NCBI RefSeq assembly: GCF_002797895.1
Contig: NZ_PGES01000001.1
Coordinates: 930,001 to 994,000, forward strand
Length of the DNA stretch: 64,000 nucleotides
Reading direction: 5' to 3'
DNA from: Janthinobacterium sp. 67
GTDB lineage: Bacteria > Pseudomonadota > Gammaproteobacteria > Burkholderiales > Burkholderiaceae_D
Shown here in pieces: positions 285 to 13,413 of the stretch (position 1 is the stretch's first letter; each line of letters starts with the position of its first letter). The notes under the pieces are model-generated. The model saw only the letters and a program-made list of their open reading frames with translations, ran no database searches and was not told where the DNA came from. Position numbers and translations under genes: made by a program.

Positions 285-1976
285 TCAAGCAGGGATGCCT
301 TTCGGGACTATTTCTGGTGCGAGTGCATTCAACTCATCTTTGTAGGCCATAATTGGTGAGTAAAGTTTATGGAACGATCTTCCTATGGCGCCTGAGAATA
401 GCTCCATATATGGGTTTGATTCCCCGCCCTCTATTATGTGTGCAATTGAAATTCCTGGGTAAGGGTCAATGTAAAATATTTTTCTGATTCCTAGTTGATA
501 GGCTTTTTTTGCGCATAATTCACAAGGGCTTGCTGTCGTGAATAGAAAGCCGCCATAAATTCCCTGGCCACCATATTTTGATATTTGCAAAAAAGCATTT
601 TCTTCCGCGTGTAGCGATCGTGTATGAACTTGATTATTGGTTTTGTATATCGAATTAAATTCTGACTTGAAGCAGTACGATACATTTCTTCCGGTCGATG
701 CGATTTTTATGTATCTTTTGTTTCTTTCTTTGAAATTATTTATATATATTTCATCATTTTTCTCATAATTACTGAAGGCAATTTTATCCAATCCGCTTAA
801 GAGATCATCTCTATTTCTAAGATTGCATGGAACATGTCCGTGTGGCGTGTCATTCCAACCTATTGCTTTCACGGAAAAATTATTGTCTGTAATTAATGCG
901 CCAACTTGACGAGATATGCAGCCGGAATTTAATTTTGCAGTGTAGGCAATTTGCATACAACGCTCTAGTGCTGTTGGCGTGATAATTCCCGGACGTTTCA
1001 TTAACGAGATTAGACGTGTAATTTGATTTGTGAGATTGGTTAGTTTTCCAACTCTGCTATCTCCATTCGGGTTGCTTAAATAAATATCCGCACGTTGAAG
1101 GCATCCTTGAATATCTTGCATAGAATATGTGGATTCAACCTCAATATCGCGATTGGCATACTCTGTTGAATCTATGGATTCTATTTCTTTTGCAGAGAAG
1201 TTTTGCAAGGCGAGTCTTATGAGCCTCTGCTCATCGGGGCAAGAAACTGCAACTAAGTGGAAATTTGTTATTCTGTCTTGTAGAAAAACTGCTTCTAGAG
1301 GGTTGCGTAATGCATCAACAGCAATCAGGGATTTTCGCCCTAAAGTCTGATTACATATCATTAGTTCACTTATGACGTCGTGAACATATTTTACTAGAGA
1401 GAAGAATGCCCCCTCTTTTACCTTGCTGTCAAAAGGAGAGCCAGAAAAGCGAATATTTGATCCAAATACTTGATATAGTGGAACAATAACAGTTTCACCT
1501 AGCCTTGTCTTTAGTTCGTCACTTTTTTTGGGGAGATATTCCGTATAAAATTCGATAATTTGTTTTGGGTCTTTTCTTTCATATATGTCTTTGCAGTGAA
1601 ATTCTAACTCCAATAGTGTTTCTCTTGCTATTGAATGTGCATCTTCTTTCTCGGGTGTTGCTGTTTTTATAAATTCAACTGCTTTTTTTACTCCATTCTT
1701 AATTAGTAATAAGGTTATTATTGATCTTACTTGAATTATTTGGAATGGGTGCCATGTTTTTGTTAAGTGGCGATGTATTATTTTCTGTTTCCTTTCATCG
1801 TTGCTGCTTGGATTGTCTCCTTTATATAGGGTGTGATGTAATTCACTAAGATCTGATCTTAATATTGATGCCACTGTTGAACACCCACTTCCGGTTCTTC
1901 CGGTGAGGCCAATAACTATATGGTCATTGTCACCTTCATAGATGGTATTTATTGCTGACTTAATATATTGGCCCAT
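285..1976 (-). CDS. Anti-phage dCTP/dCMP deaminase: P-loop kinase-like domain fused to zinc deaminase domain
   Basis: This 563-residue protein has a nucleotide-kinase-like N-terminal domain and a cytidine/deoxycytidylate deaminase C-terminal domain. The C-terminal half shows the zinc site LHAEEN (H456, catalytic E458) and SPCELCAKK (C485, C488). The N-terminus has a P-loop-like GLTGRTGSGCST at residues 23-34 in which the Walker A lysine position is Cys32. This two-domain layout and length match the defence dCTP deaminases (AvcD/DCD type), which deplete dCTP during phage infection; the defence role here is inferred from that family. The gene is strikingly AT-rich with A/T third positions, unlike all neighbours, so it was probably acquired horizontally. 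A purine-rich site (AAGGAAAG) precedes the ATG. The gene lies 33 bases downstream of amj in the same orientation and may be cotranscribed with it. No toxin or sRNA partner was recognised. Confidence 0.82.
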   Translation of the reverse strand: MGQYIKSAINTIYEGDNDHIVIGLTGRTGSGCSTVASILRSDLSELHHTLYKGDNPSSNDERKQKIIHRHLTKTWHPFQIIQVRSIITLLLIKNGVKKAVEFIKTATPEKEDAHSIARETLLELEFHCKDIYERKDPKQIIEFYTEYLPKKSDELKTRLGETVIVPLYQVFGSNIRFSGSPFDSKVKEGAFFSLVKYVHDVISELMICNQTLGRKSLIAVDALRNPLEAVFLQDRITNFHLVAVSCPDEQRLIRLALQNFSAKEIESIDSTEYANRDIEVESTYSMQDIQGCLQRADIYLSNPNGDSRVGKLTNLTNQITRLISLMKRPGIITPTALERCMQIAYTAKLNSGCISRQVGALITDNNFSVKAIGWNDTPHGHVPCNLRNRDDLLSGLDKIAFSNYEKNDEIYINNFKERNKRYIKIASTGRNVSYCFKSEFNSIYKTNNQVHTRSLHAEENAFLQISKYGGQGIYGGFLFTTASPCELCAKKAYQLGIRKIFYIDPYPGISIAHIIEGGESNPYMELFSGAIGRSFHKLYSPIMAYKDELNALAPEIVPKGIPA

Positions 1977-2009: not shown

Positions 2010-2816
2010 CTACAACCCCTTCGCCACCCCCACAATCACCACCGCCGACGGCACCAGCAAAAGCTGTGCAATCAGCGTCCCCGCCAATCTGCTTCCCACC
2101 AGCCACACCACCGCGCGCCGGAACTGCGATTCTTCGATCTTGCCCTCTACGACGTCATCCGTCATGCCCGACATGTGCGGATCGATGAAGACGGCCATCA
2201 TGATCGTGGCGCCGCCGTTGATGATCGATGAAAGCGTGCTGGAGGTCACGCGCACGCTGGGGTCCAGCACGCCCGCGTACAGGGCGGCGAAGACACCTAC
2301 CGTCCACAGGGCCGTGGCGATGACGTTCATGGCTGTCATGGAGACGGAGACGCCGGATTGTTGGCGCAGGCCCGTGACGTTGGCGGGTTTGGGCAGGCTG
2401 GCGGAGGTCTTGAGGTAGGACAAGCCGCCCTTGAAGACGGCGTGCAGCAAGAGCTTCGGTACCGACCTGTGTACCTGGAAGTGCTCGACGGCGCGGCAGA
2501 AGGCGCGCTGGAAGGTGGGGATCAGTATGGCGCCGAGGATGGTCGCCAGGCTGGCGGAGAATAGCAGCCAGCGGAAGTCGACTAATAAAGTGCTGGCGGC
2601 AACATGCTGGTCTATGCCCGTTTCCACGCGCTTGGCGAGGAATGGTCCAAGGAAAGAGTTCGACGTGCGCGACAGCAGCATCAGGATGCTGAACAGGGCC
2701 AGCGAGACGGCGATGCGCCGCGTGCGGATGCCGGCGATGCGCACGGAATAGGCGAGTGTGCCGATGATGTGGATGATGAACGTCAGTGCGCAAATCAGCA
2801 GCAATTGCTTGTCCAT
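2010..2816 (-). CDS. amj: Lipid II flippase, Amj family
   Basis: The 268-residue multi-pass membrane protein begins MDKQLLLICALTFIIHIIGT and contains the family-typical stretches RIAGIRTRR and SLALFSILMLLSRTSN, followed by several hydrophobic helices. It matches the Amj/YdaH family (DUF2837). Members can act as alternative lipid II flippases to MurJ, moving the peptidoglycan precursor across the inner membrane. The ATG at 2816 is preferred because AAGG lies about 8 bases upstream; an in-frame ATG 33 bases earlier would add a non-conserved extension. It is transcribed away from the terB side. The AT-rich deaminase gene immediately downstream appears to have been inserted behind it. Confidence 0.85.
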   Translation of the reverse strand: MDKQLLLICALTFIIHIIGTLAYSVRIAGIRTRRIAVSLALFSILMLLSRTSNSFLGPFLAKRVETGIDQHVAASTLLVDFRWLLFSASLATILGAILIPTFQRAFCRAVEHFQVHRSVPKLLLHAVFKGGLSYLKTSASLPKPANVTGLRQQSGVSVSMTAMNVIATALWTVGVFAALYAGVLDPSVRVTSSTLSSIINGGATIMMAVFIDPHMSGMTDDVVEGKIEESQFRRAVVWLVGSRLAGTLIAQLLLVPSAVVIVGVAKGL

Positions 2817-2941
2817 CACAACCTTGCAGTATGGAAAATGTAATTCCATCCTGCCATGGAATTATTTATTTTTCAACTGCAAATAAGATAATTTTATGTG
2901 ATTGGGGTTTTGTGGTGGTTTGTGTGGAGTTGACTGAATTT

Positions 2942-3004: not shown

Positions 3005-3131
3005 AGATAAATGCCGCCAGTGAGCGTCTGACTGGTTTCCTTGCTTGTATTTCAAGCTTGCACCCTCAACTACCGTGGGTAGCGGCAAGATCTTGCCGCT
3101 CGACATGAATCAACCAACCCGGAGGTACACC

Positions 3132-3587
3132 ATGAGTTTCGATTCCTTTTTGTCCAAGCTGAAGACCAAAGCCAGCGAACTGAAAACCGAAGCGCTGAAG
3201 TACAAGAACAAGGATTTCCTGAACGCCGCGATGGCGGGCTCGGCCCTGATCGCCATGGCCGACGGCAGCGTCAGTGCGGAAGAAAAGCAGAAGATGGTCA
3301 AATTCATTGAAAGCAATGACGCGCTGTCGGTGTTTACCACCACGGACGTGATCAAGGCGTTCCAGGAATATGTCGGCCAGTTGGAGTTCGACAAGGATAT
3401 CGGCGAAGCCAAGGCGTATCAGGCGCTGGGCAAGATGAAGTCGAATGTGGAGGCGTCGCGCCTGCTGGTGCGCATGATCATCGCCGTCGCTTCGTCGGAC
3501 GGCAATTTCGACGCCAACGAGCAACGCGTGGCCAGCAAGATTGCGCGCGAACTGGGCTTGAATCCAGGCGAGTTCGAGCTGCAGTAA
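3132..3587 (+). CDS. terB: TerB-family tellurite resistance/stress protein
   Basis: The 151-residue product has the same length as classical TerB and shares its features: an N-terminal KYKNKDFLNA segment, MADGSVSAEEKQKMVKFI, and a second acidic helical repeat ASSDGNFDANEQ. TerB folds as an all-helical metal-binding protein associated with the inner membrane and belongs to the Ter stress-response network. The ATG at 3132 has a strong GGAGG 7 bases upstream; an upstream in-frame ATG (3045) lacks a good site and lies near the repeat. No terC, terD or terZ is adjacent, so it is an isolated terB. A VWA/PP2C/kinase cassette of the TerY-P type lies 3.3 kb downstream on the same strand. Confidence 0.9.
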   Translation: MSFDSFLSKLKTKASELKTEALKYKNKDFLNAAMAGSALIAMADGSVSAEEKQKMVKFIESNDALSVFTTTDVIKAFQEYVGQLEFDKDIGEAKAYQALGKMKSNVEASRLLVRMIIAVASSDGNFDANEQRVASKIARELGLNPGEFELQ

Positions 3588-3610: not shown

Positions 3611-4135
3611 TTAACTCTTGTCCCACCACGGCGGCGTGCCCGACGACCAGGGGCACGCCATTTGCACTTCGCTGATCCTGTAGCGGATCTCGATCACCTG
3701 GCCTGGGCTGAAGGGACCGCGTTTCCAGTCGCCGGAATCAAAGACGTAGCCTTTGCCCTTGATGCAAAGACTGGTCGGATTGTTGCCGATGGGGCCGGTC
3801 GAGTGCAGGGTGACGCGCACTTCGCCGTTGGCGTCCAGCGGGGCGTCGCCGCCCATGAAAAGTGGATCCGAGCCGATGTCGCAGACAGTGGTGCTGCCTA
3901 TCTTGCTGCAGTGCTTGATATACGTTTGCTGGCGCGCATTGGCCAGGTAATCGTCATGCCGCATCGGCTTGCCGTCGTCATAGGTAAAGCGCAGGATGAC
4001 TTGCGTGGGCTCGCTGGCCGGATGGCGTGTGGTGCTCGTGCACGCGGCGCTGACGAGGGCCATCAAGGGCCAGGCCAGCAGGCGCAGGCCGCCGCGCAGC
4101 ACGGTGAAGATCGGATTACTGCGAGGTGTCTGCAT
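3611..4135 (-). CDS. Putative lipoprotein or secreted protein of unknown function
   Basis: The 174-residue product starts MQTPRSNPIF and has an Arg-containing n-region, a hydrophobic segment LLAWPLMALVSAAC and then a Thr/Ser-rich linker, consistent with a signal peptide. Cys32 could be lipidated, but the lipobox SAAC is weak because Ser occupies the usual Leu position. The mature part is small and mostly beta-like, with Cys at ATYIKHCSKIGSTTVCD-like spacing and near LCIKGKGYVF. I do not recognise a family. An in-frame start 147 bases upstream would precede the signal peptide with arginine-rich sequence and is less likely. It is convergent with terB. Confidence 0.6.
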   Translation of the reverse strand: MQTPRSNPIFTVLRGGLRLLAWPLMALVSAACTSTTRHPASEPTQVILRFTYDDGKPMRHDDYLANARQQTYIKHCSKIGSTTVCDIGSDPLFMGGDAPLDANGEVRVTLHSTGPIGNNPTSLCIKGKGYVFDSGDWKRGPFSPGQVIEIRYRISEVQMACPWSSGTPPWWDKS

Positions 4136-4229
4136 TGCGCTCCATGGGCCGTTGCCGTTCGTTTCAGGAATTTGGCGGCGATGATAGCACGCGATGGCAG
4201 CGCCTGGCCTGCCGCGCCTGTGCGCCGCT

Positions 4230-4673
4230 TCAACGCGACGCCAGGCCGATGTTTTGTATGTGGGAGGGCACGATGCCGCCACTCGACACCTTCTGCGACG
4301 GCACCACCATCACCAGTTCGCCATCCACGCTGCCGTCATCATTGTGGTCGATGCGCACTTTCAGCTGGCGGTCCAGCGCGACGAAGGCGTTGCGGTCGGT
4401 GGCGATGATACGGTGCTCTTCCTGCTTGCCGATACGCGCATACATGACGGCGCCGGCGAGGCGCAGTTCCATGGTGTCGCCATTCGACAGATCATAGGTG
4501 CCGACGAACTTCTTGCAATCCTGGCGCATCATGTAGCGCGGATGTTCGGGCACGTCGATGCGCAGCGAGTTGCCCGGCACCGTGACGGTGTGTTCGGGCG
4601 GCAGGGCCTGCGCAGTGGCTGCGGGGCTGGCGGCGGCAAGGCACAGCAGTGTGCCCAGGATGATGGTTTTCAT
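4230..4673 (-). CDS. Small exported protein, paralogue of the gene at 5262-5711
   Basis: The 147-residue product has a clear signal peptide (MKTIILGTLLCLAAASPAA, probable cleavage near ATAQA). The mature domain shares an alignable core with the product at 5262-5711: FVGTYDLSNG, GAVMYARIGKQEEHRI, FVALDRQLKVRID, DGSVDGELV and IVPSHIQNIGLASR. The start is supported by GAGGA about 9 bases upstream. Function is unknown; the duplicated beta-rich domain suggests a periplasmic or surface role. The two copies flank an unrelated gene, all on the minus strand. Confidence 0.7.
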   Translation of the reverse strand: MKTIILGTLLCLAAASPAATAQALPPEHTVTVPGNSLRIDVPEHPRYMMRQDCKKFVGTYDLSNGDTMELRLAGAVMYARIGKQEEHRIIATDRNAFVALDRQLKVRIDHNDDGSVDGELVMVVPSQKVSSGGIVPSHIQNIGLASR

Positions 4674-4821
4674 GGTGTCGTCCTCGTTGATTGATGGCCT
4701 CTGGCGCATGGTGCCGGCAGGCATGGGGCAGCAACCAGTCTAGGCGCGGCTTTGGCGCTGCGCATCGTCCATTCGGTGGAGAACTGCAGAGTATGCGGCG
4801 CCGGTACTGCGCGGCGCAATG

Positions 4822-5262
4822 TTACCGGGCACCGTGATTCATTTCCTGCAGCACCTTCTTGCACAGCAGGCCATAGTCCACGCCCGTGCCGCGCTTGCGT
4901 GCGGCCGGCTCGTAGCGGGCGCTGATGTCGTCCCACGCCACGCTGCCAGGCAGGGGGCGCAGCGCGTCGTCAAGGTCCATCTCGAAGTGGATGAAGTGGC
5001 CGTCGGCGCTCAGCAGCTTGCCGTACACGGCGGGCATGCCGGGGTAGGCCAGACGCAGGTCGAGCATGATGGAGGTGCCCAGCGCCACGCCGTGGCTGGC
5101 CGCGTACTGGCGCAAGGCCTCGGGCAAGGGACGCGCACGCCACCAGGCCGCCTTCTGTCTGATGGCTGCCTGGGTCAGCGTGTTTTGCTGCTGGACAGAA
5201 TAGTGTCTGCTCATGGCGGCCACCCATGCGGAGTGCAGAATGCGGCACGCGGCTTGTTGCAT
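4822..5262 (-). CDS. Hypothetical protein, translationally coupled to upstream gene
   Basis: The 146-residue product has no family I recognise. Its ATG (5262-5260) overlaps the stop of the preceding gene in a TGATG arrangement, indicating translational coupling. The N-terminus is not a convincing signal peptide. The body contains LGTSIMLDLRLAYPGM, DGHFIHFEMDLDDAL and YGLLCKKVLQEMN. Sitting between two paralogous exported proteins, it may belong to the same functional unit. Codon use matches the neighbours. Confidence 0.6.
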   Translation of the reverse strand: MQQAACRILHSAWVAAMSRHYSVQQQNTLTQAAIRQKAAWWRARPLPEALRQYAASHGVALGTSIMLDLRLAYPGMPAVYGKLLSADGHFIHFEMDLDDALRPLPGSVAWDDISARYEPAARKRGTGVDYGLLCKKVLQEMNHGAR

Positions 5263-5711
5263 CAACGTAAGGCCAGGCCCATGCTTTGCACGTGGGCAGG
5301 CACGATGTCGCCGCTGGCCAGTTTTTCGGCCGGCATCTGCATCAGCACTTCGCCGCCCACGCTGCCATCGTTGCGCAAGTCGATGCGCACGGCCAGTTGC
5401 CGGTCCAGCGCCACGAAGCTGTGGCTGCCGCTGGCGACGATGCGGTGTTCTTCCTGATCGTCGATACGCGCATACATGATGGCGCCGATGCTGCCGATAT
5501 TGCGCAGGTGGAGTACTTGCCCGTTCGACAGCTCATAGCCGCCGCGGAACGGGGCAAACGTTTCCGCATTCATAAAATGTCTTTGGGGCGGCAGTTCGAT
5601 CGTCTGCAGGCGTCCGCCTGGAATGACGACGGTCTGGCTGTCGGGGAGCGATTGCGCATTTGCCAGCAGGGCGCAAACGCCCAGGGTGCCGGCCAGTATC
5701 CATGTTTTCAT
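5262..5711 (-). CDS. Small exported protein, paralogue of the gene at 4230-4673
   Basis: The 149-residue product starts MKTWILAGTLGVCALLANAQ, a typical signal peptide with cleavage near ANA-Q. The mature part repeats the core of its neighbour: GGYELSNGQVLHLR, IMYARIDDQEEHRIVA, SFVALDRQLAVRIDL, DGSVGGEVLMQMP and DIVPAHVQSMGLALR. It therefore arose by duplication. It is the first gene of a probable three-gene minus-strand unit (5711 to 4230) and its stop overlaps the start of the next gene. Function is unknown. Confidence 0.7.
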   Translation of the reverse strand: MKTWILAGTLGVCALLANAQSLPDSQTVVIPGGRLQTIELPPQRHFMNAETFAPFRGGYELSNGQVLHLRNIGSIGAIMYARIDDQEEHRIVASGSHSFVALDRQLAVRIDLRNDGSVGGEVLMQMPAEKLASGDIVPAHVQSMGLALR

Positions 5712-6908: not shown

Positions 6909-7592
6909 ATGAGTTCAATAATGATTCCCGACGTCGCCCTCGTCGACAACACCGAACAACGCACGCCATTGGTGCTCGTGCTGGACTGCTCCGGCAGCAT
7001 GGATGGCGAGCCTGTCTCGCTGCTCAACGAAGGCCTGGCCTTGCTGGAACAGGAACTCAAGTCCGACGTGATCGCCGCCAAGCGCGTGCGCATCCTGGTG
7101 ATTCAATACGGCGCCCACGATGAAGCCGTGGTGGCCAGCAACTGGTGCGATGCCATGGATTTCACGGCACCCCTCTTGGCCGCGAACGGCACCACGCCGA
7201 CCGGTGCGGCCGTCGAACTGGCGCTGGCCGAGATCGAGCAGGAAAAGCAGCGCTTCCGCCAGGCGGGCGTGGCGTACACGCGGCCATGGCTGTTTTTGAT
7301 GTCGGACGGCGAGCCGACGGACCGCTGGCAGCACGGCGCCGAGCAGGCGCGCGCGGCGGAACAATCGAACAAGGTGGCGATCTTCCCCATCGCCGTGGGC
7401 GACAACGCGAATATCGATTCCCTGGGGCAGTTTTCCAGCCGTGGCGAGCGGGGCGTGAAGCAGCTGAAAGGCTTGCAGTTCCGCGAACTGTTCCTGTGGC
7501 TGAGCGCCAGCATGCAGGTGGTGTCGCAATCGCGTCCCGGTGCGCAGGCCCAGCTGGCCTCGACGGACGGCTGGTCTGTCGTGAGCACCTGA
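6909..7592 (+). CDS. VWA-domain protein, TerY-like
   Basis: The 227-residue cytosolic protein is essentially one von Willebrand A domain. The MIDAS motif DCSGSMDG starts at D26, with the further metal-site segments NGTTPTGAAV and FLMSDGEPTDRW, then IFPIAVGDNAN. It matches TerY-type VWA proteins, which act as metal-dependent protein-binding partners. It has no signal peptide. It is the first gene of a plus-strand operon, with the PP2C gene starting 3 bases after its stop. VWA + PP2C + kinase is the composition of the TerY-P triad described for Ter-linked stress systems. The start is uncertain; ATG 6921 is an alternative. Confidence 0.85.
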   Translation: MSSIMIPDVALVDNTEQRTPLVLVLDCSGSMDGEPVSLLNEGLALLEQELKSDVIAAKRVRILVIQYGAHDEAVVASNWCDAMDFTAPLLAANGTTPTGAAVELALAEIEQEKQRFRQAGVAYTRPWLFLMSDGEPTDRWQHGAEQARAAEQSNKVAIFPIAVGDNANIDSLGQFSSRGERGVKQLKGLQFRELFLWLSASMQVVSQSRPGAQAQLASTDGWSVVST

Positions 7593-7595
7593 TCG

Positions 7596-8363
7596 ATGGC
7601 AGCAGTGCAAGCAACACAGGATGCCTGGCGCGTGTTCGGCGCGTCCGTCACGGGCAAGGCGCACCTGGATAAAGACATCCCTTGCCAGGATGCGCACGCG
7701 CATGCCGTCGTGGGCGATGTGCTGGTGGCCATCGTCTGCGATGGCGCCGGTTCGGCCCGGCTCAGCGAGCAGGGCGCGCAGTTTGTGGCAAGGCAGACCG
7801 TGCAGGCGCTGGCCGGACGGCTGGAGCAGGGCGCCACCGTGCAGGATTTGCTCGACGGTGCGCTGGCCGGCACCCTGGCGCAGATACGCGCCGCGCTGGA
7901 CGACATCGCCCGCGCCGCCAATGCCACCCTCGATGATTACGCTGCCACAGTCGTGGGCGTGGTCATGGGAGCGGAGGCCGGCTTCTTCTTCCACCTGGGC
8001 GATGGCCTGGGCGTGGCGCAACTGCTTGACGGTAGCGAACTGATCTCGCTGCCCGCCAACGGCGAATACGCGAACGAAACCTATTTTATCAGCGGCGAAC
8101 GCTGGCGCGAACAGCTGCGCCTGTTGTCGATACCCCGGTCCGTGCGCGGCGTCGTGCTGATGTCGGACGGCTGCATGCCCTTTGCCATGGGCAAGAACAA
8201 TGCGGCCTTGTACGCGCCGTTCATGGATGCCGTGCAAGGCTATTTGCGCACGGTCGACAGCGTCGAGCTGGGCAATGAAGCGCTGGCGTCCACCCTGGCC
8301 GACCCGCGCACGCACCAGATCACGGGCGACGACAAGACCCTGCTGCTGGCCTTGCGCGCATGA
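7596..8363 (+). CDS. PP2C-family Ser/Thr phosphatase
   Basis: The 255-residue product has the PP2C metal-site order: CQDA (30-33), VCDGAGSA with D49, HLGDG (133-137), VLMSDG with D191, and a final TGDDKTLL near the C-terminus. It fits the PP2C_2 group paired with cytosolic or membrane kinases. It probably removes phosphates placed by the kinase encoded next. Its TGA overlaps the kinase ATG (ATGA at 8360), so the two are translationally coupled. There is no signal peptide. No strong ribosome-binding site is visible upstream, which suggests coupling to the VWA gene as well. Confidence 0.88.
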   Translation: MAAVQATQDAWRVFGASVTGKAHLDKDIPCQDAHAHAVVGDVLVAIVCDGAGSARLSEQGAQFVARQTVQALAGRLEQGATVQDLLDGALAGTLAQIRAALDDIARAANATLDDYAATVVGVVMGAEAGFFFHLGDGLGVAQLLDGSELISLPANGEYANETYFISGERWREQLRLLSIPRSVRGVVLMSDGCMPFAMGKNNAALYAPFMDAVQGYLRTVDSVELGNEALASTLADPRTHQITGDDKTLLLALRA

Positions 8364-10711
8364 GCCGGAAGCAGGGTGTGACACCGGGCCTGAGTCCGGG
8401 TGGAAAAATTTGGCTCGATAAAGTCCGCAGTTTGGTCTTGGGCAAACTGATTAAAAGCGGCGGCGCGGGCAGCGTGTATCTGCTGCCGGGCGCGCCCACG
8501 CAGGTGGCCAAGCTGTACCACCCGCACCTGGACCGGGCCGCCAATCGGCGCAAGCTCGAGGCGATGCTGGAACTGTCGCCCGAGCTGCCCGACCAGGTGG
8601 AAAACGGCAAGCGCTACGTGCAGATCGCCTGGCCGCAAGCGGCCGTGTTCGACGGCCAGGGCGGCTTTGCCGGCTTCGTCATGCCCTTGCTGGACATGGC
8701 GCAGACGGCCGAGCTGGAACAGATCATGCAGGAGCGGCAAGCGCGCGCGGCCGGCTTGCCCACGGGACTCGGACCCAAGCTGACCCTGGCCGCCAACCTG
8801 GCCGCCGTCATCGATGCGCTGCACCAGCAGCAGCATTACGTGGTCGACCTGAAACCGGTGAACCTGCGCTTTTACCGCGATTCGCTGTACATCGCCATGC
8901 TCGATTGCGACGGTTTCAGCATCCAGGGCCATGCCGAGCGTTTTCCTGCCGAGCAATTCACGGCCGATTACCTGGCGCCGGAATTCCAGCGTAAGGGCAT
9001 GCCGGCGGGCACGGAAATGGCGCAGGACCGCTTCGCGCTGGCCGTCGTCATCTTCCAGTTGCTCAACTTTGGCATCCACCCGTACAGCGGGCGGCCCGGC
9101 AATGCGCAAGTGGCGACCGACATTCCCGGGCGCATCCGCGACGGCTGCTATGCGTATGGCGTCAAACGCCACAAGCAGCTGGCGCCGAACGCGACGAGCG
9201 GCCATGCCTTGATGCCGCCCGAACTGCGCGCCATGTTCGACCGCGCGTTTTCCCCGTCCCCCAAACCCCAGCGGCCCTCGGCGGCCGACTGGGCGCAATT
9301 GCTGCGCGGCTATGCGCAGCGCAGCGGCGGCAAGCTCGTCGTGTGTGCCGCGAATGCCGAACACCAGCATTTTGCGGGCTTCGGCTGCGCCGCCTGCGCG
9401 CGCGACAAGGTCATCGGTGTGGCAGCGCAAGCGTCCGTGCTTGCGCAGCAGCAGATACTGGCGCAGTCCCAGCCTCGGCAGCGCAGCACGCGCGGCGCAC
9501 ACCATACGGCGCCGGGGCAAGCGCCCGTGCGGCTACCGGCAGGCGGTGCGCAGGCCAATGCGGTCGGCATTTCCGGCAAGGGCTGGGCCGTGGTGGTGCT
9601 GCTGATCGTGCTGTTCCTGATCGGCTTTACGGCCTGGACCTCGTCGCCCGATGAAGCCAAGGCCAAGGCCGCCCTGCAGGCGCAAGCGGACCAGGCGGCT
9701 GGCCTGGAAGTATTTCGCTGGCGCTCGCCCAAGGCGGCCGGCTTCCAACCGTCCGATGCGCGCAAGGCCGTGCGCAGCCTGTCGCAAGCGATCAGCAAGG
9801 GCGACGATGACGCCGTCACGCGTGGCTTGCAGCTGTTGTACCGTTCCGGCCAGGAAAAGTCGCCCGGCTACGGCGGCGACAGCACGCAGGTGCGGCTGCG
9901 CGCCTCGTTGCTGGAGGGCCTGGGCTGGGTGCCCGGCTATGAGCCGGCGCTGGTCGCTACCTATCTTGACTTGCTGCAAGCGAACCCGCGCGACCATCTG
10001 GTGGCGGCGGCCATGGGCCGCATGCACCTGAGCCTGAACGAACCGCAGGCGGCGCGCCAGTACTTCGAGCAAGCCGTGTGGGCGCATCCGACGGATGGCA
10101 CGGCCTGGCTGGGCATGGCCGCTGCCGCGCAGCTGCGCGGTGGCGACGAGGGCGATGCCGTCAATCTGGTGGCGCTGGCGCAACTGACGGCTTACCGCTA
10201 CGCCGTGGAGCATGCCTTGCCGGCCGAGCCGGGTCAGCCGGCCGACAATGGCGTGGCGCGCATGACGCAGCGCATGGATCTGAACGCCAAGGTGCTGCGT
10301 CTGGCGCAGCCGGGCGCTTACCAGAAACGCTGGGACAAGGTACTGGCCGAGGGCGCGCTGCTGGCAACCAGGCTGAAGGCCTTGCCGCCCTTGCGGGACC
10401 AGGTCGGCGGCGTACAGCGCGAGACGATGACGACGGTTGCGTATGGCGTGCTGGACGAAAAGCACGAAACGGGTGAAAACCGCTTGACCTTGACCATTAC
10501 CGCCGATGGCACCCTGAGCCATGCGGCGGCCGAGTTGCCGATGGAACCGATGCTCAACAAGGTGCTGCTCGATAGCGTCAAGCGCTGGACCTACTTGCCG
10601 GCCGTGCAGCACGGTCAATTGCAGGAAGCCAAGGTTGTGGTGCTCGTGCGCTACCGCGATGGCCAGGTCAGCTTCGTGCCGGGCGGCGTGGCCGTCACGG
10701 CGGAAAATTAG
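8360..10711 (+). CDS. Membrane-spanning Ser/Thr protein kinase with Zn-binding-like linker and periplasmic TPR/TonB-C-like tail
   Basis: The 783-residue protein starts with a kinase domain: Gly loop SGGAGSV (33-39), Lys51, catalytic VVDLKPVNL with D163 and N168, metal-site variant LDCDGF (181-186) and YLAPEF (204-209). A Cys/His cluster (C329, H335/H337, C343, C346) follows, resembling the Zn-ribbon of TerY-P kinases. A single transmembrane helix lies at about 407-425. The region after it is Ala-rich and TPR-like (about 520-610), and the last 95 residues resemble a TonB C-terminal domain (ITADGTL, VKRWTYLPAV). The predicted layout is a cytosolic kinase with a periplasmic sensor tail. The partner phosphatase and VWA protein are encoded upstream; the MORN genes follow 9 bases after the stop. 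Confidence 0.85.
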   Translation: MSRKQGVTPGLSPGGKIWLDKVRSLVLGKLIKSGGAGSVYLLPGAPTQVAKLYHPHLDRAANRRKLEAMLELSPELPDQVENGKRYVQIAWPQAAVFDGQGGFAGFVMPLLDMAQTAELEQIMQERQARAAGLPTGLGPKLTLAANLAAVIDALHQQQHYVVDLKPVNLRFYRDSLYIAMLDCDGFSIQGHAERFPAEQFTADYLAPEFQRKGMPAGTEMAQDRFALAVVIFQLLNFGIHPYSGRPGNAQVATDIPGRIRDGCYAYGVKRHKQLAPNATSGHALMPPELRAMFDRAFSPSPKPQRPSAADWAQLLRGYAQRSGGKLVVCAANAEHQHFAGFGCAACARDKVIGVAAQASVLAQQQILAQSQPRQRSTRGAHHTAPGQAPVRLPAGGAQANAVGISGKGWAVVVLLIVLFLIGFTAWTSSPDEAKAKAALQAQADQAAGLEVFRWRSPKAAGFQPSDARKAVRSLSQAISKGDDDAVTRGLQLLYRSGQEKSPGYGGDSTQVRLRASLLEGLGWVPGYEPALVATYLDLLQANPRDHLVAAAMGRMHLSLNEPQAARQYFEQAVWAHPTDGTAWLGMAAAAQLRGGDEGDAVNLVALAQLTAYRYAVEHALPAEPGQPADNGVARMTQRMDLNAKVLRLAQPGAYQKRWDKVLAEGALLATRLKALPPLRDQVGGVQRETMTTVAYGVLDEKHETGENRLTLTITADGTLSHAAAELPMEPMLNKVLLDSVKRWTYLPAVQHGQLQEAKVVVLVRYRDGQVSFVPGGVAVTAEN

Positions 10712-10720
10712 AGGAATACC

Positions 10721-12067
10721 ATGAAAATCAAGACCCTATGCGCCGTGCTGGGCGCTTCATTGCTGACTCCCGGCATGGCGCAGGCGGACATCGTGCAGCG
10801 CCTCGTGGTGACCGCCATGGCCGCCGAGCAAGATAGCGAAGGCGGCGATGTGTTCAGTATTGCGGGCACGACCGCCTGTGGCGGCAAGCAGATACGCATG
10901 GATGCCCGATCGGTGAACCTGGACGAGGCGCCATACGAAGCGCTGAAAGCGCGGCTGGCCAAGCAGATCCGCAGCAAGACGCCCATGCTCGTCACCGTGA
11001 AAAATTGCCCCGAGGATCAAAGCGTGCCCATCGTGCGGCAGATCGCCGCCTGCACGCCAGCGGCTTGCGCCGACGGTCGGGCGCGGTTGTACCTGCACGA
11101 GCGCTTCTTCCCCATCGAGCAGGAAAAGGCGCCGAATGTGCTGCTGTTGCCTTTGCCGAAAGGCAAGCTGCCGGGTACGTGGAAGGTGGACATTTACAGC
11201 GTGGCCGGTCACAAGCTGCGCCTGTCGGGCCAGGTCAACCACGCCGATTATGCGCAGGGTGAACTGGTCGGCGGCTACACCTATTATTACCCGGATGGCC
11301 AGATCGAAAAACAGGTGCCGCAAGATGCCAAGGGCCGGCAGCAGGGCGTGGCCAGCAGTTACTATTCTGATGGTACGCTGGAATCGCGCAGCCAATGGCG
11401 CGACGGTATGCCGGAAGGCATGCAGCGCAGCTATCACAGCACGGGCAAGCTGCGCGAAGCTGTGGAATTTCGCAATGGCGGCCAGGTTGACGGCACATTC
11501 GATACCTTTGATGCCAATGGCAAGCTGAAGACACGCCAGACCATGCGCGATGGCAAGCTGGAAGGCGAACTCATTACGTATTTTCCTGACGGTAAAGTTT
11601 CCAGCCGCACGCAAATGAGCAAGGGCAAGTACCACGGTCTGGCCACCTATTACCATCCGGATGGCGCCGTGCGCTCCACCATGACAATGCTCATGGACTT
11701 GCCGGCGGGCGAAGCGCTGGAATTTTATCCAGATGGCAAGGTGCAAACGCGCCAGCAGTATGCCGGGAATGGAGCGCTGCTCAAGGTCCAACGCTACAGT
11801 CCGCAAGGCGTGCTGGTGCTGGAAAGAAACTGGGACAAGCAGCTGCGTGAGCAGGGCACGTCGCGCTCGTGGTACGAGAACGGCAAGCCGGAGCAAGCCA
11901 TCGACTACGTGAACGACCGGCGCGACGGCTGGAGCCGCAGCTGGCACGAGGATGGCAGTTTGAAGGGCGAATGCCAGTATGTGGCCGGCAAGGCCCAGGG
12001 CGCATGCGGCGAAGCGCCGCCAGCGCCGGAACTGCAGCGCAAGGAGCAGGCATGGCGCGCATTGTGA
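10721..12067 (+). CDS. Exported MORN-repeat protein 1
   Basis: The 448-residue protein has a signal peptide (MKIKTLCAVLGASLL, cleavage near AQA-D), a unique N-terminal domain of about 165 residues with paired Cys, then ten MORN_2-type repeats. Repeat signatures include YYPDG, YYSDG, YHSTG, FDANG, YFPDG, YHPDG, FYPDG, WYENG and WHEDG. It is paralogous to the next gene along its whole length. MORN_2 repeats are also found in YwqK-type proteins, but no toxin gene is present. GAGG lies just upstream of the start. As the fourth gene of the VWA/PP2C/kinase operon, it may interact with the periplasmic tail of the kinase; this is inference. Confidence 0.82.
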   Translation: MKIKTLCAVLGASLLTPGMAQADIVQRLVVTAMAAEQDSEGGDVFSIAGTTACGGKQIRMDARSVNLDEAPYEALKARLAKQIRSKTPMLVTVKNCPEDQSVPIVRQIAACTPAACADGRARLYLHERFFPIEQEKAPNVLLLPLPKGKLPGTWKVDIYSVAGHKLRLSGQVNHADYAQGELVGGYTYYYPDGQIEKQVPQDAKGRQQGVASSYYSDGTLESRSQWRDGMPEGMQRSYHSTGKLREAVEFRNGGQVDGTFDTFDANGKLKTRQTMRDGKLEGELITYFPDGKVSSRTQMSKGKYHGLATYYHPDGAVRSTMTMLMDLPAGEALEFYPDGKVQTRQQYAGNGALLKVQRYSPQGVLVLERNWDKQLREQGTSRSWYENGKPEQAIDYVNDRRDGWSRSWHEDGSLKGECQYVAGKAQGACGEAPPAPELQRKEQAWRAL

Positions 12068-13413
12068 AGCATGTGCTGCTTGCAACGCTGCTGTGGCCGC
12101 TGCTGGCCCACGCCGAGATTGAGCAGCGGCAAGTAGTCACCGCGATCAAGGCGACGCCCGACGGCGACGTGCTGACCCTCGCCAGCGACAGCGGCTGCGG
12201 CGGCAGGCAGGTGCTGATGGATGCCGTGTCCGTGGGCCTGGACGCGCAGCAGTACGCCGCCATGAAGCAGCAATTGGCCAAGCTGATACGCGACAAAACG
12301 CCCTTGTTGATGCGTATCAGATCTTGTCCTACGCCAGGTAAGGCGGCTGCGCTCGCCATGCCCGATGTCGGCAAGCTGGGCGGCTGCGAGCCGCAAGCCT
12401 GTGCCGACGGCAAGGCGCGCCTGTACCTGAATCACAATCTGACGCGCGGCGAAGTCAAGGAGCATGCGCGCTATGCGCTGCTCGTCCCGCTGCCGCCAGG
12501 CAAGACGCCCGGCACCTGGCAAGTCGAGGTGGTGCACGCGCGGAAAGGCGAGCCGAAGCGGCTGATTGGCCAGGTCAACGAGCCTGATTACCTGCGCGGC
12601 AAGCTGGTGGGCAACTACAGCATGTACTACCCGCATGGCCAGTTGGAAATGCAGGTGGAGCAGGATGGGCGCGGCGTGCAGCAGGGTGTGCAGACCATGT
12701 ATCGCCCTGAGGGCCAGATTTCCATGCGCAACACGTGGCGCAATGGCGTGCAGGAAGGCGAACAGCGGATCTACCACGATACGGGCAAGCTGAACGAGGT
12801 CAGCCATTACGAGAACGGCGCCCGCGCCGATGGCCTGGTAGAAACGTTCGACACGGACGGCAAGCTGCGCACGCGCGTGACACAGGTCAAGGGCCAGACG
12901 GAGGGCGAGCTGCTGCTGTTCTATCCGGACGGCACAGTGGAAAGCCGCAGCCAGTACGTCAACGGCATCATGACGGGGCCCAGCACCGGCTATTTCCCCG
13001 ACGGCAAGGTGCAGCGCACGGCCAACTACGTAGACGACAAGCCTGTCGGCGACAGCATCGAATATTACCCGGACGGCAAAGTCGCCAACAAGCGCACGCA
13101 CAGCGGCCACTACGTCTTGCGCAGCGAACAGCGCTTCAGCCGGACCGGCGTATTGCTCGTGGACAAACGGTGGAACGCGGGCGGGCGCGAGGAGGGCGCG
13201 TTGCGTTCCTGGTATGCGAATGGCAAACCTCGTCAGTTGATCGAGTATGTCGATGGCGAACGCCAGGGCTGGACCCGGCACTGGCGCGCAGACGGTAGTG
13301 TGGAAAGCGAATGCCGCTATGTGGCGGATGAGGCGCAGGGGGAGTGCACGGGGGCGTCCGCGAAGATGTCGTACACGGAGGATGGAATTGAGTTCGAGAT
13401 GCCGGAGCAGTGA
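12052..13413 (+). CDS. Exported MORN-repeat protein 2
   Basis: The 453-residue product starts MARIVKHVLLATLLWPLLAH with signal-peptide cleavage near AHA-E; AAGGAG lies 6-11 bases before the ATG, and the start overlaps the end of the previous gene by 16 bases. The N-terminal domain aligns with its paralogue (QRQVVTAIKA, SGCGGRQVLMDAVSV, CADGKARLYL, PGTWQVEVV, LIGQVNEPDYLRGKLVG). Ten repeats follow, including YYPHG, YRPEG, FYPDG, YFPDG, YYPDG, WYANG and WRADG. It is the last gene of the five-gene operon. The two MORN proteins probably arose by tandem duplication and may form a pair. Confidence 0.82.
   Translation: MARIVKHVLLATLLWPLLAHAEIEQRQVVTAIKATPDGDVLTLASDSGCGGRQVLMDAVSVGLDAQQYAAMKQQLAKLIRDKTPLLMRIRSCPTPGKAAALAMPDVGKLGGCEPQACADGKARLYLNHNLTRGEVKEHARYALLVPLPPGKTPGTWQVEVVHARKGEPKRLIGQVNEPDYLRGKLVGNYSMYYPHGQLEMQVEQDGRGVQQGVQTMYRPEGQISMRNTWRNGVQEGEQRIYHDTGKLNEVSHYENGARADGLVETFDTDGKLRTRVTQVKGQTEGELLLFYPDGTVESRSQYVNGIMTGPSTGYFPDGKVQRTANYVDDKPVGDSIEYYPDGKVANKRTHSGHYVLRSEQRFSRTGVLLVDKRWNAGGREEGALRSWYANGKPRQLIEYVDGERQGWTRHWRADGSVESECRYVADEAQGECTGASAKMSYTEDGIEFEMPEQ

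Follow-up and report, generated by a model that had tools for sequence, protein, structure and literature searches.

Within a window of 64,000 nucleotides, the whole stretch of the Janthinobacterium sp. 67 chromosome analysed here, five plus-strand open reading frames (ORFs) occupy positions 6909 to 13413 and encode, in this order, a VWA-domain protein, a PP2C-type phosphatase, a Ser/Thr kinase and two MORN-repeat proteins, here called MORN1 and MORN2. The gaps between them, calculated from the coordinates, are +3, -4, +9 and -16 nt, and because of this spacing we take the five genes as a single, probably co-transcribed unit. Promoter and terminator scans of the operon were uninformative, with one promoter found for 1.2 expected and six terminators for 5.7 expected. 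The gene downstream is nadB. The original prediction had described a five-gene operon combining a tailed transmembrane kinase with two signal-peptide MORN proteins; the five ORFs and their tight spacing agree with it, topology and export being themselves predictions. In the following list, the Pfam scores are above the cut-off for VWA, PP2C_2 and both MORN_2 matches, and below it for Pkinase, TPR_14 and TonB_C.

6909..7592, plus strand: VWA-domain protein, 227 amino acids (Pfam VWA 1.1e-10; MIDAS-type motif DCSGS at residue 26; YegL match)
7596..8363, plus strand: PP2C-type Ser/Thr phosphatase, 255 amino acids (Pfam PP2C_2 3.2e-40; acidic DGAG, GDG, SDG and DDKT motifs; PphC match)
8360..10711, plus strand: Ser/Thr kinase, 783 amino acids, predicted to be transmembrane
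8360..9409, plus strand: cytosolic kinase domain (predicted), residues about 1-350 (catalytic motifs)
9344..9397, plus strand: cysteine/histidine (C/H) cluster C329-H335-C343-C346 (alignment of relatives)
9581..9637, plus strand: single predicted transmembrane helix, residues 408-426 (hydropathy, charge)
9749..10378, plus strand: helical TPR-like region, predicted extracytoplasmic, residues about 464-673 (predicted structure, comparison with PDB, TPR_14)
10454..10690, plus strand: putative TonB/TolA-type C-terminal domain, residues about 699-777 (TonB_C, tail profile, Foldseek)
10721..12067, plus strand: MORN1, 448 amino acids (Pfam MORN_2 1.1e-32; signal peptide by eye)
12052..13413, plus strand: MORN2, 453 amino acids (Pfam MORN_2 9.5e-30; signal peptide by eye)

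The triad, the kinase tail and the MORN proteins

The TerY-P triad is described in the excerpt of PMC11090510 (citing Anantharaman 2012) as a VWA protein, a PP2C phosphatase and a Ser/Thr kinase with a C-terminal zinc ribbon. The first three genes of the operon had been predicted to have this composition, and the Pfam matches, the motifs and the invariant C/H cluster bear this out. For the kinase, the Pfam Pkinase match is below its cut-off (2e-5), and a profile built from 11 relatives matches solved kinases at 1.2e-10. Its sequence holds a GGAGSV glycine loop, K51, D163, K165, N168 and D182, where K51 was assigned as the ATP-binding lysine by position and not from an alignment with solved structures. 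With the catalytic Lys, Asp and Asn and the Mg-binding Asp all present, the protein appears to be a Hanks-type kinase. The residues C329, H335, C343 and C346 are invariant in all 11 aligned relatives, including YegI of E. coli, and lie at the position of the zinc ribbon of TerY-P kinases; we predict that they form a metal site, a zinc ribbon fused C-terminal to the kinase domain.

A trans-envelope topology had also been predicted, and it is favored by the analysis of hydropathy and charge. The mean Kyte-Doolittle value of the helix at residues 408-426 is 2.47, the highest value N-terminal of it being 1.39, and the protein has one hydrophobic segment, 35 residues long. The flanking charges are net positive on the N-terminal side and net negative on the C-terminal side. 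Of the 29 distinct genus kinases compared, 27 have a higher net charge on the N-side than on the C-side, which is the positive-inside pattern. A single helix is therefore predicted to cross the membrane, leaving the kinase domain and the zinc cluster on the cytosolic side and the tail in the periplasm.

The tail comprises the 355 residues after the helix and was modelled (model m73c0df5076da, pLDDT 81.6) as a TPR-like array followed by a TonB-type C-terminal domain. In the Foldseek search with this model, no match reached an E value of 0.001 or better; TPR structures headed the ranking, with a best E value of 8e-3, and 6i97_D, a TonB C-terminal domain, was found with an E value of 0.02, a TMt of 0.76 and a root-mean-square deviation of 2.6. 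The Pfam matches were TPR_14 (3.2e-4) and TonB_C (3.9e-3). A profile of the tail picks out TonB-like proteins in other genomes, the best match having a value of 1.4e-8, and two of the three matches inspected adjoin, by eye, an ExbB/TolQ-like frame. By profile and model, the end of the tail thus appears to carry both the sequence and the fold of a TonB C-terminal domain.

MORN-like motifs were matched 10 times in MORN1 (8 separate sites) and 6 times in MORN2, compared with a mean of 0.18 and maxima of 2 and 3 in 1000 shuffled controls. MORN1 consists of an N-terminal domain (residues about 24-172) with four conserved Cys and of a MORN solenoid (residues about 182-426), which is modelled as one continuous beta solenoid similar to solved MORN and OspA solenoids; the N-terminal domain is modelled with lower confidence. 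MORN2 has the same kind of N-terminal domain followed by MORN repeats, and is a paralogue of MORN1 with 48% identity. Both proteins are predicted to be exported according to their signal-peptide-like starts, recognized by eye. We also considered that they might be YwqK/MORN antitoxin or immunity proteins; these starts, nadB as the downstream gene and the lack of a toxin domain among the Pfam matches of the operon proteins speak against it. In two loci of the genus, an extra MORN gene (L014:904-2328 and L015:889-2316) precedes the VWA gene at a distance of about 4.2 kb; its N-terminal domain is 53-54% identical to that of MORN1.

Linkage and selection in Janthinobacterium

A protein scan yielded 17 loci, all of them from Janthinobacterium, with a best identity of 90%. 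The survey covered 392 genomes of the family, of which 40 were listed as belonging to the same genus. The kinase was matched in 39 of the 392. The tailed kinase is present in 30 of the 40 genus genomes; of the other ten, one (G201) has a 54-residue TonB-like match alone and nine show no match. Eight genomes from other genera match with the kinase domain only. Beyond the genus, the samples searched yielded no full tail, and within these samples the extension formed by the tail and the MORN genes is lineage-specific.

The distribution of the MORN proteins follows that of the tailed kinase. A profile of the MORN N-terminal domain was positive in 35 of the 392 genomes, namely the 30 with the tailed kinase, one with a weak match (G290) and four of another genus. 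The first MORN N-terminal domain lies downstream of the tailed kinase in all 30, at 76-111 nt in 29 of them and at 898 nt in the other, so the predicted conservation of the MORN genes with the triad is upheld as far as sampled. Most loci have two MORN genes (26 of 30), while three have one and one has three. A one-sided Fisher test of kinase against MORN presence over the 40 genus members, which ignores relatedness, gives 3.7e-8; the MORN N-terminal domain is also absent in nine of the ten kinase-less genomes, three of these ten being less than 90% complete. The nadB site was inspected in four of the ten kinase-less genomes (G310, G201, G212 and G290), and the operon is absent from it. In G310 a MORN remnant stays between the TerB-family gene and nadB, which suggests that the operon was lost there.

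Two loci that form their own branch within the genus, L036 (G256) and L037 (G072), have two tandem tailed kinases with diverged tails, followed by one or two MORN genes. In L032 (G237) the kinase frame is broken near residue 652 into two pieces on a complete-looking contig, either a natural lesion or a sequencing error.

The ratios of non-synonymous to synonymous substitution rates (dN/dS) in 13 loci are 0.04-0.13 for the VWA protein, 0.14-0.29 for PP2C, 0.04-0.15 for the kinase domain, 0.20-0.49 for the tail and 0.24-0.58 for MORN1; those of MORN2, from 12 loci, are 0.20-0.39. All five genes are under purifying selection, with faster evolution in the exported parts than in the catalytic domains. 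The mean distances of the tail (0.41) and the MORN1 N-terminal domain (0.40) are nearly equal, compared with 0.09 for the kinase domain. Constraint combined with faster change on the outside is what would be expected of a receptor and its partner.

Relatives of the triad

Like the TerY-P triad, the operon encodes all three proteins, and its kinase domain is followed by the zinc cluster; the organization as an operon is common to both. It differs in the helix and the 355-residue TPR/TonB-C tail of its kinase, in the MORN genes that follow, whose products are predicted to be exported, and in the absence of adjoining restriction genes among the proteins scanned. With regard to a possible role in tellurite resistance, metal sensing or restriction/DNA processing, as for TerY-P, a TerB-family gene lies 3.3 kb upstream; this gene is present in 11 of 17 other Janthinobacterium stretches, fetched with a reach of about 8 kb on each side, and it stands beside nadB also in the triad-less G310.

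A closer relative is the YegL-PphC-YegI locus of E. coli, which is homologous and has the same gene order, with identities of 41% for the VWA protein, 30% for PP2C and 27-28% for the kinase. YegI is also of the membrane-bound type, as predicted for the window kinase, and has the same C-H-C-C cluster. The excerpt of PMC13232886 describes it as a membrane-bound autokinase that is dephosphorylated by PphC, and states that no condition promoting yegI and pphC expression has been defined in E. coli. The kinase motifs of YegI are degenerate, according to the title of a paper, whereas those of the window kinase are kept. YegI has a 53-residue hydrophobic stretch, which we read as a two-helix hairpin, and a weaker one at residues 344-374. 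The C-terminus of YegI, with a helix-hairpin-helix match below threshold (9.3e-4), is expected back in the cytosol; the YegI locus, unlike the window, is without MORN genes. The single 35-residue segment and the TPR/TonB-C tail set the window kinase apart from the YegI architecture, and the two kinases fall into separate clades of a midpoint-rooted tree with long branches, which we used solely for this broad split. The triad itself is thus already known from the TerY-P description and from YegL-PphC-YegI, and what is added to it here is the tail together with the MORN genes. The claim that no described system has this exact arrangement stands insofar as our search of open-licence papers, by title or start of the abstract, returned none; it had, however, overlooked the membrane-bound relative YegL-PphC-YegI.

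A further comparison is with PknS of Xanthomonas, a Hanks-type transmembrane Ser/Thr kinase for which control by the periplasmic domain has been suggested (PMC13147305, excerpt). Both kinases combine a cytosolic Ser/Thr kinase domain, a membrane helix and an extracytoplasmic domain, by prediction in the window, and that of PknS modulates activity according to the same excerpt. PknS differs in its kinase and tail and in its output through an extracytoplasmic function (ECF) sigma factor, and the excerpt mentions no VWA or exported partner genes. Defence systems listed in PADLOC were discarded as an identification, the matches being weak (MkoA 8.2e-4, PDC-M21C 1.2e-3).

We compared 27 homologous loci from outside the genus: E. 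coli K-12 (L019), 22 genomic loci (L038-L045 and L068-L081) and four plasmid or phage records (L090-L093). Both VWA and PP2C could be recognized in 24 of the loci, in L079-L081 only weakly, the exceptions being L069-L071. A MORN gene was found in none of the 27 by MORN profile on called ORFs and by tblastn, some stretches ending at contig ends. As far as sampled, homologous kinases without this tail thus do not adjoin MORN genes, a point on which the prediction depended. Hydrophobic segments of 46-53 residues occur in YegI, L039, L041, L043, L076 and L078, with a longer run in L042; we read the stretches of at least 46 residues in YegI and six or so relatives as hairpins, and several of these kinases end in helix-hairpin-helix. 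Other members of the YegI clade have segments of 31-38 residues (L040, L072, L075 and L077) or none (L071). Two kinases, of G432 and G476, share the branch of the genus kinases (support 99/98) and have VWA proteins with 53-54% identity; they have no clear helix, and that of G432 has a weakly hydrophobic stretch at its end.

Membrane anchoring is not peculiar to this operon, as some other kinases of the family also have a helix, followed by a different tail. The kinases of G098, G634, G671 and Azospirillum oryzae share with that of the window the kinase domain, the zinc cluster and one hydrophobic helix. In G098 (L038) the helix is followed by a TPR tail and then by an exported-looking, lipoprotein-like gene (lipobox by eye); in G634 (L069:6945-9950) a 1001-residue kinase continues into Big_5 and FG-GAP, VWA and PP2C not being detected nearby; and on the A. 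oryzae plasmid (L090) the tail has about 200 residues of a kind not recognized. All three have a tail after the helix, as in the window, but of another kind and without MORN genes. The kinase of G671 (L068) has almost no tail and lies on the strand opposite to VWA and PP2C. The few relatives with other tails hint at a wider, modular class of receptors. VWA-PP2C-kinase proteins also occur in phage-labelled records, namely L092 (MT836238, a scaffold from the human gut that was deposited as a phage) and PHROGs 28389, 37072 and 37888; the L092 kinase has several hydrophobic stretches.

Interpretation and genomic neighbourhood

Our proposal is a Ser/Thr phospho-switch that spans the envelope and uses a periplasmic tail to sense the exported MORN proteins or their ligand, a reading to which we give an even chance. 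Such a switch would probably let the cell respond to what happens in its envelope. A kinase of the TerY-P/YegI type would be anchored by one helix; its catalytic domain and zinc cluster would face the cytosol, and its TPR and TonB-C-like tail would read, in the periplasm, the MORN proteins or what these bind. Once exported, the MORN proteins would serve the tail as a ligand, an adaptor or a ligand-binding subunit, and their presence, absence or capture by a target in the envelope or outside may change the self-association and activity of the kinase. The kinase would phosphorylate itself and probably the VWA protein, and PP2C would reverse this. We infer the binding of MORN proteins to the tail, the direction of signalling, the part of the VWA protein as substrate or scaffold, and the physiological output.

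The kept catalytic residues, the linkage in 30 of 30 genomes, the fold of the tail, the purifying selection and the lipoprotein-like gene after the tailed kinase of G098 all speak for this proposal. Several observations weigh on the other side. The helix is predicted from hydropathy and export by eye, and no substrate or output gene is evident. The cytosolic linker (residues 351-405) also evolves fast (dN/dS 0.13-0.74), so speed is not special to the exported parts. The divergence of tail and MORN1, controlled for the kinase domain, shows no significant correlation, with a partial r of 0.24 (p 0.11) in 16 loci and about 0 in the 13 closest ones; in L013, L018 and L029, the tail is 62-63% identical to that of the window and the MORN1 N-terminal domain 86-87%. 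This result makes a tight lock-and-key pairing of tail and MORN less likely. Finally, there are orphan MORN N-terminal domains away from the triad: four genomes from a different genus have them, and three Janthinobacterium genomes have them as additional copies; these orphan proteins (L052-L058) have mostly few or degraded repeats, the triad being absent by eye.

The kinase-MORN linkage would also fit if the MORN proteins are outputs, that is, envelope proteins whose export, assembly or attachment the tail organizes as a scaffold while the phospho-switch controls it from inside. The orphan MORN proteins, which may work without the kinase, agree with this, as do the one to three MORN genes per locus and the fact that TPR and TonB-C are both interaction folds. 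However, no channel or outer-membrane protein is found in the operon by Pfam, and the faster evolution of tail and MORN suits a receptor as well; we hold this explanation to be possible but rather improbable. It appears unlikely that the five genes are a stand-alone, TerY-P-like anti-phage module in which tail and MORN proteins sense phage adsorption or injection at the envelope. The excerpt of PMC11090510, citing Gao 2020 and Anantharaman 2012, attributes antiphage activity to TerY-P-like modules whose kinase has a different tail and describes TerY-P triads as companions of restriction systems. A homologue of a defence dCTP deaminase lies at 285-1976 of the window. Yet the five genes have no strong PADLOC match, and the neighbours are largely common ones: nadB and Amj are each present in 13 of the 17 stretches and TerB in 11, the deaminase homologue in none. 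A presence in 30 of 40 genomes of the genus is also, in our judgement, high for a mobile defence gene.

The MORN genes, of the immunity YwqK type or duplicates encoding surface proteins, might instead be accidental neighbours under one promoter with a triad that works independently of them. There are many MORN_2 proteins, some of which bear the name antitoxin; this, the orphan members and the co-divergence that was not seen between tail and MORN would be in keeping with such an accident. We nevertheless regard it as distinctly unlikely: all 30 genomes show the adjacency, over a range of kinase identities of 54-95%, the tandem kinases of G256 and G072 are still followed by MORN genes, the operon Pfam matches include no toxin domain, and none of the 27 outside loci has a MORN gene.

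If the operon does encode the proposed sensing switch, a TonB-type domain at the far end of a Ser/Thr kinase would be an unusual link between outer-envelope events and cytosolic phosphorylation. The triads recur in many bacteria, and for the signal read by their kinase the Janthinobacterium tail and its linked, predicted exported partners would offer a concrete, testable input. In a broader and more doubtful generalization, which we put forward tentatively, TerY-P/YegI switches would be a large, unrecognized class of trans-envelope receptors with exchangeable tails, each with its own exported partner, and the Janthinobacterium version would read MORN solenoids through its TonB-type domain. If this were true, the TonB fold would be used as the sensor end of a Ser/Thr kinase.

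Other genes stand to the left of the operon. The 563-residue deaminase homologue (285-1976, minus strand; PADLOC dCTPase 2e-127) is in the low-GC left end of the window, and its NCBIfam score of 358.6 is below the cut-off of 400. It is followed by an Amj-family protein, an alternate to MurJ (2010-2849, minus strand; Pfam 1.4e-91), and by the TerB-family protein (3045-3587, plus strand). Between the latter and the operon, at 3611-5711 on the minus strand, is a cluster of small proteins that look secreted by eye and have homologues in 12-13 of the 17 stretches. The protein at 5262-5711, the sole cluster member scanned, had no Pfam match; by eye, it and the protein at 4230-4724 resemble each other.

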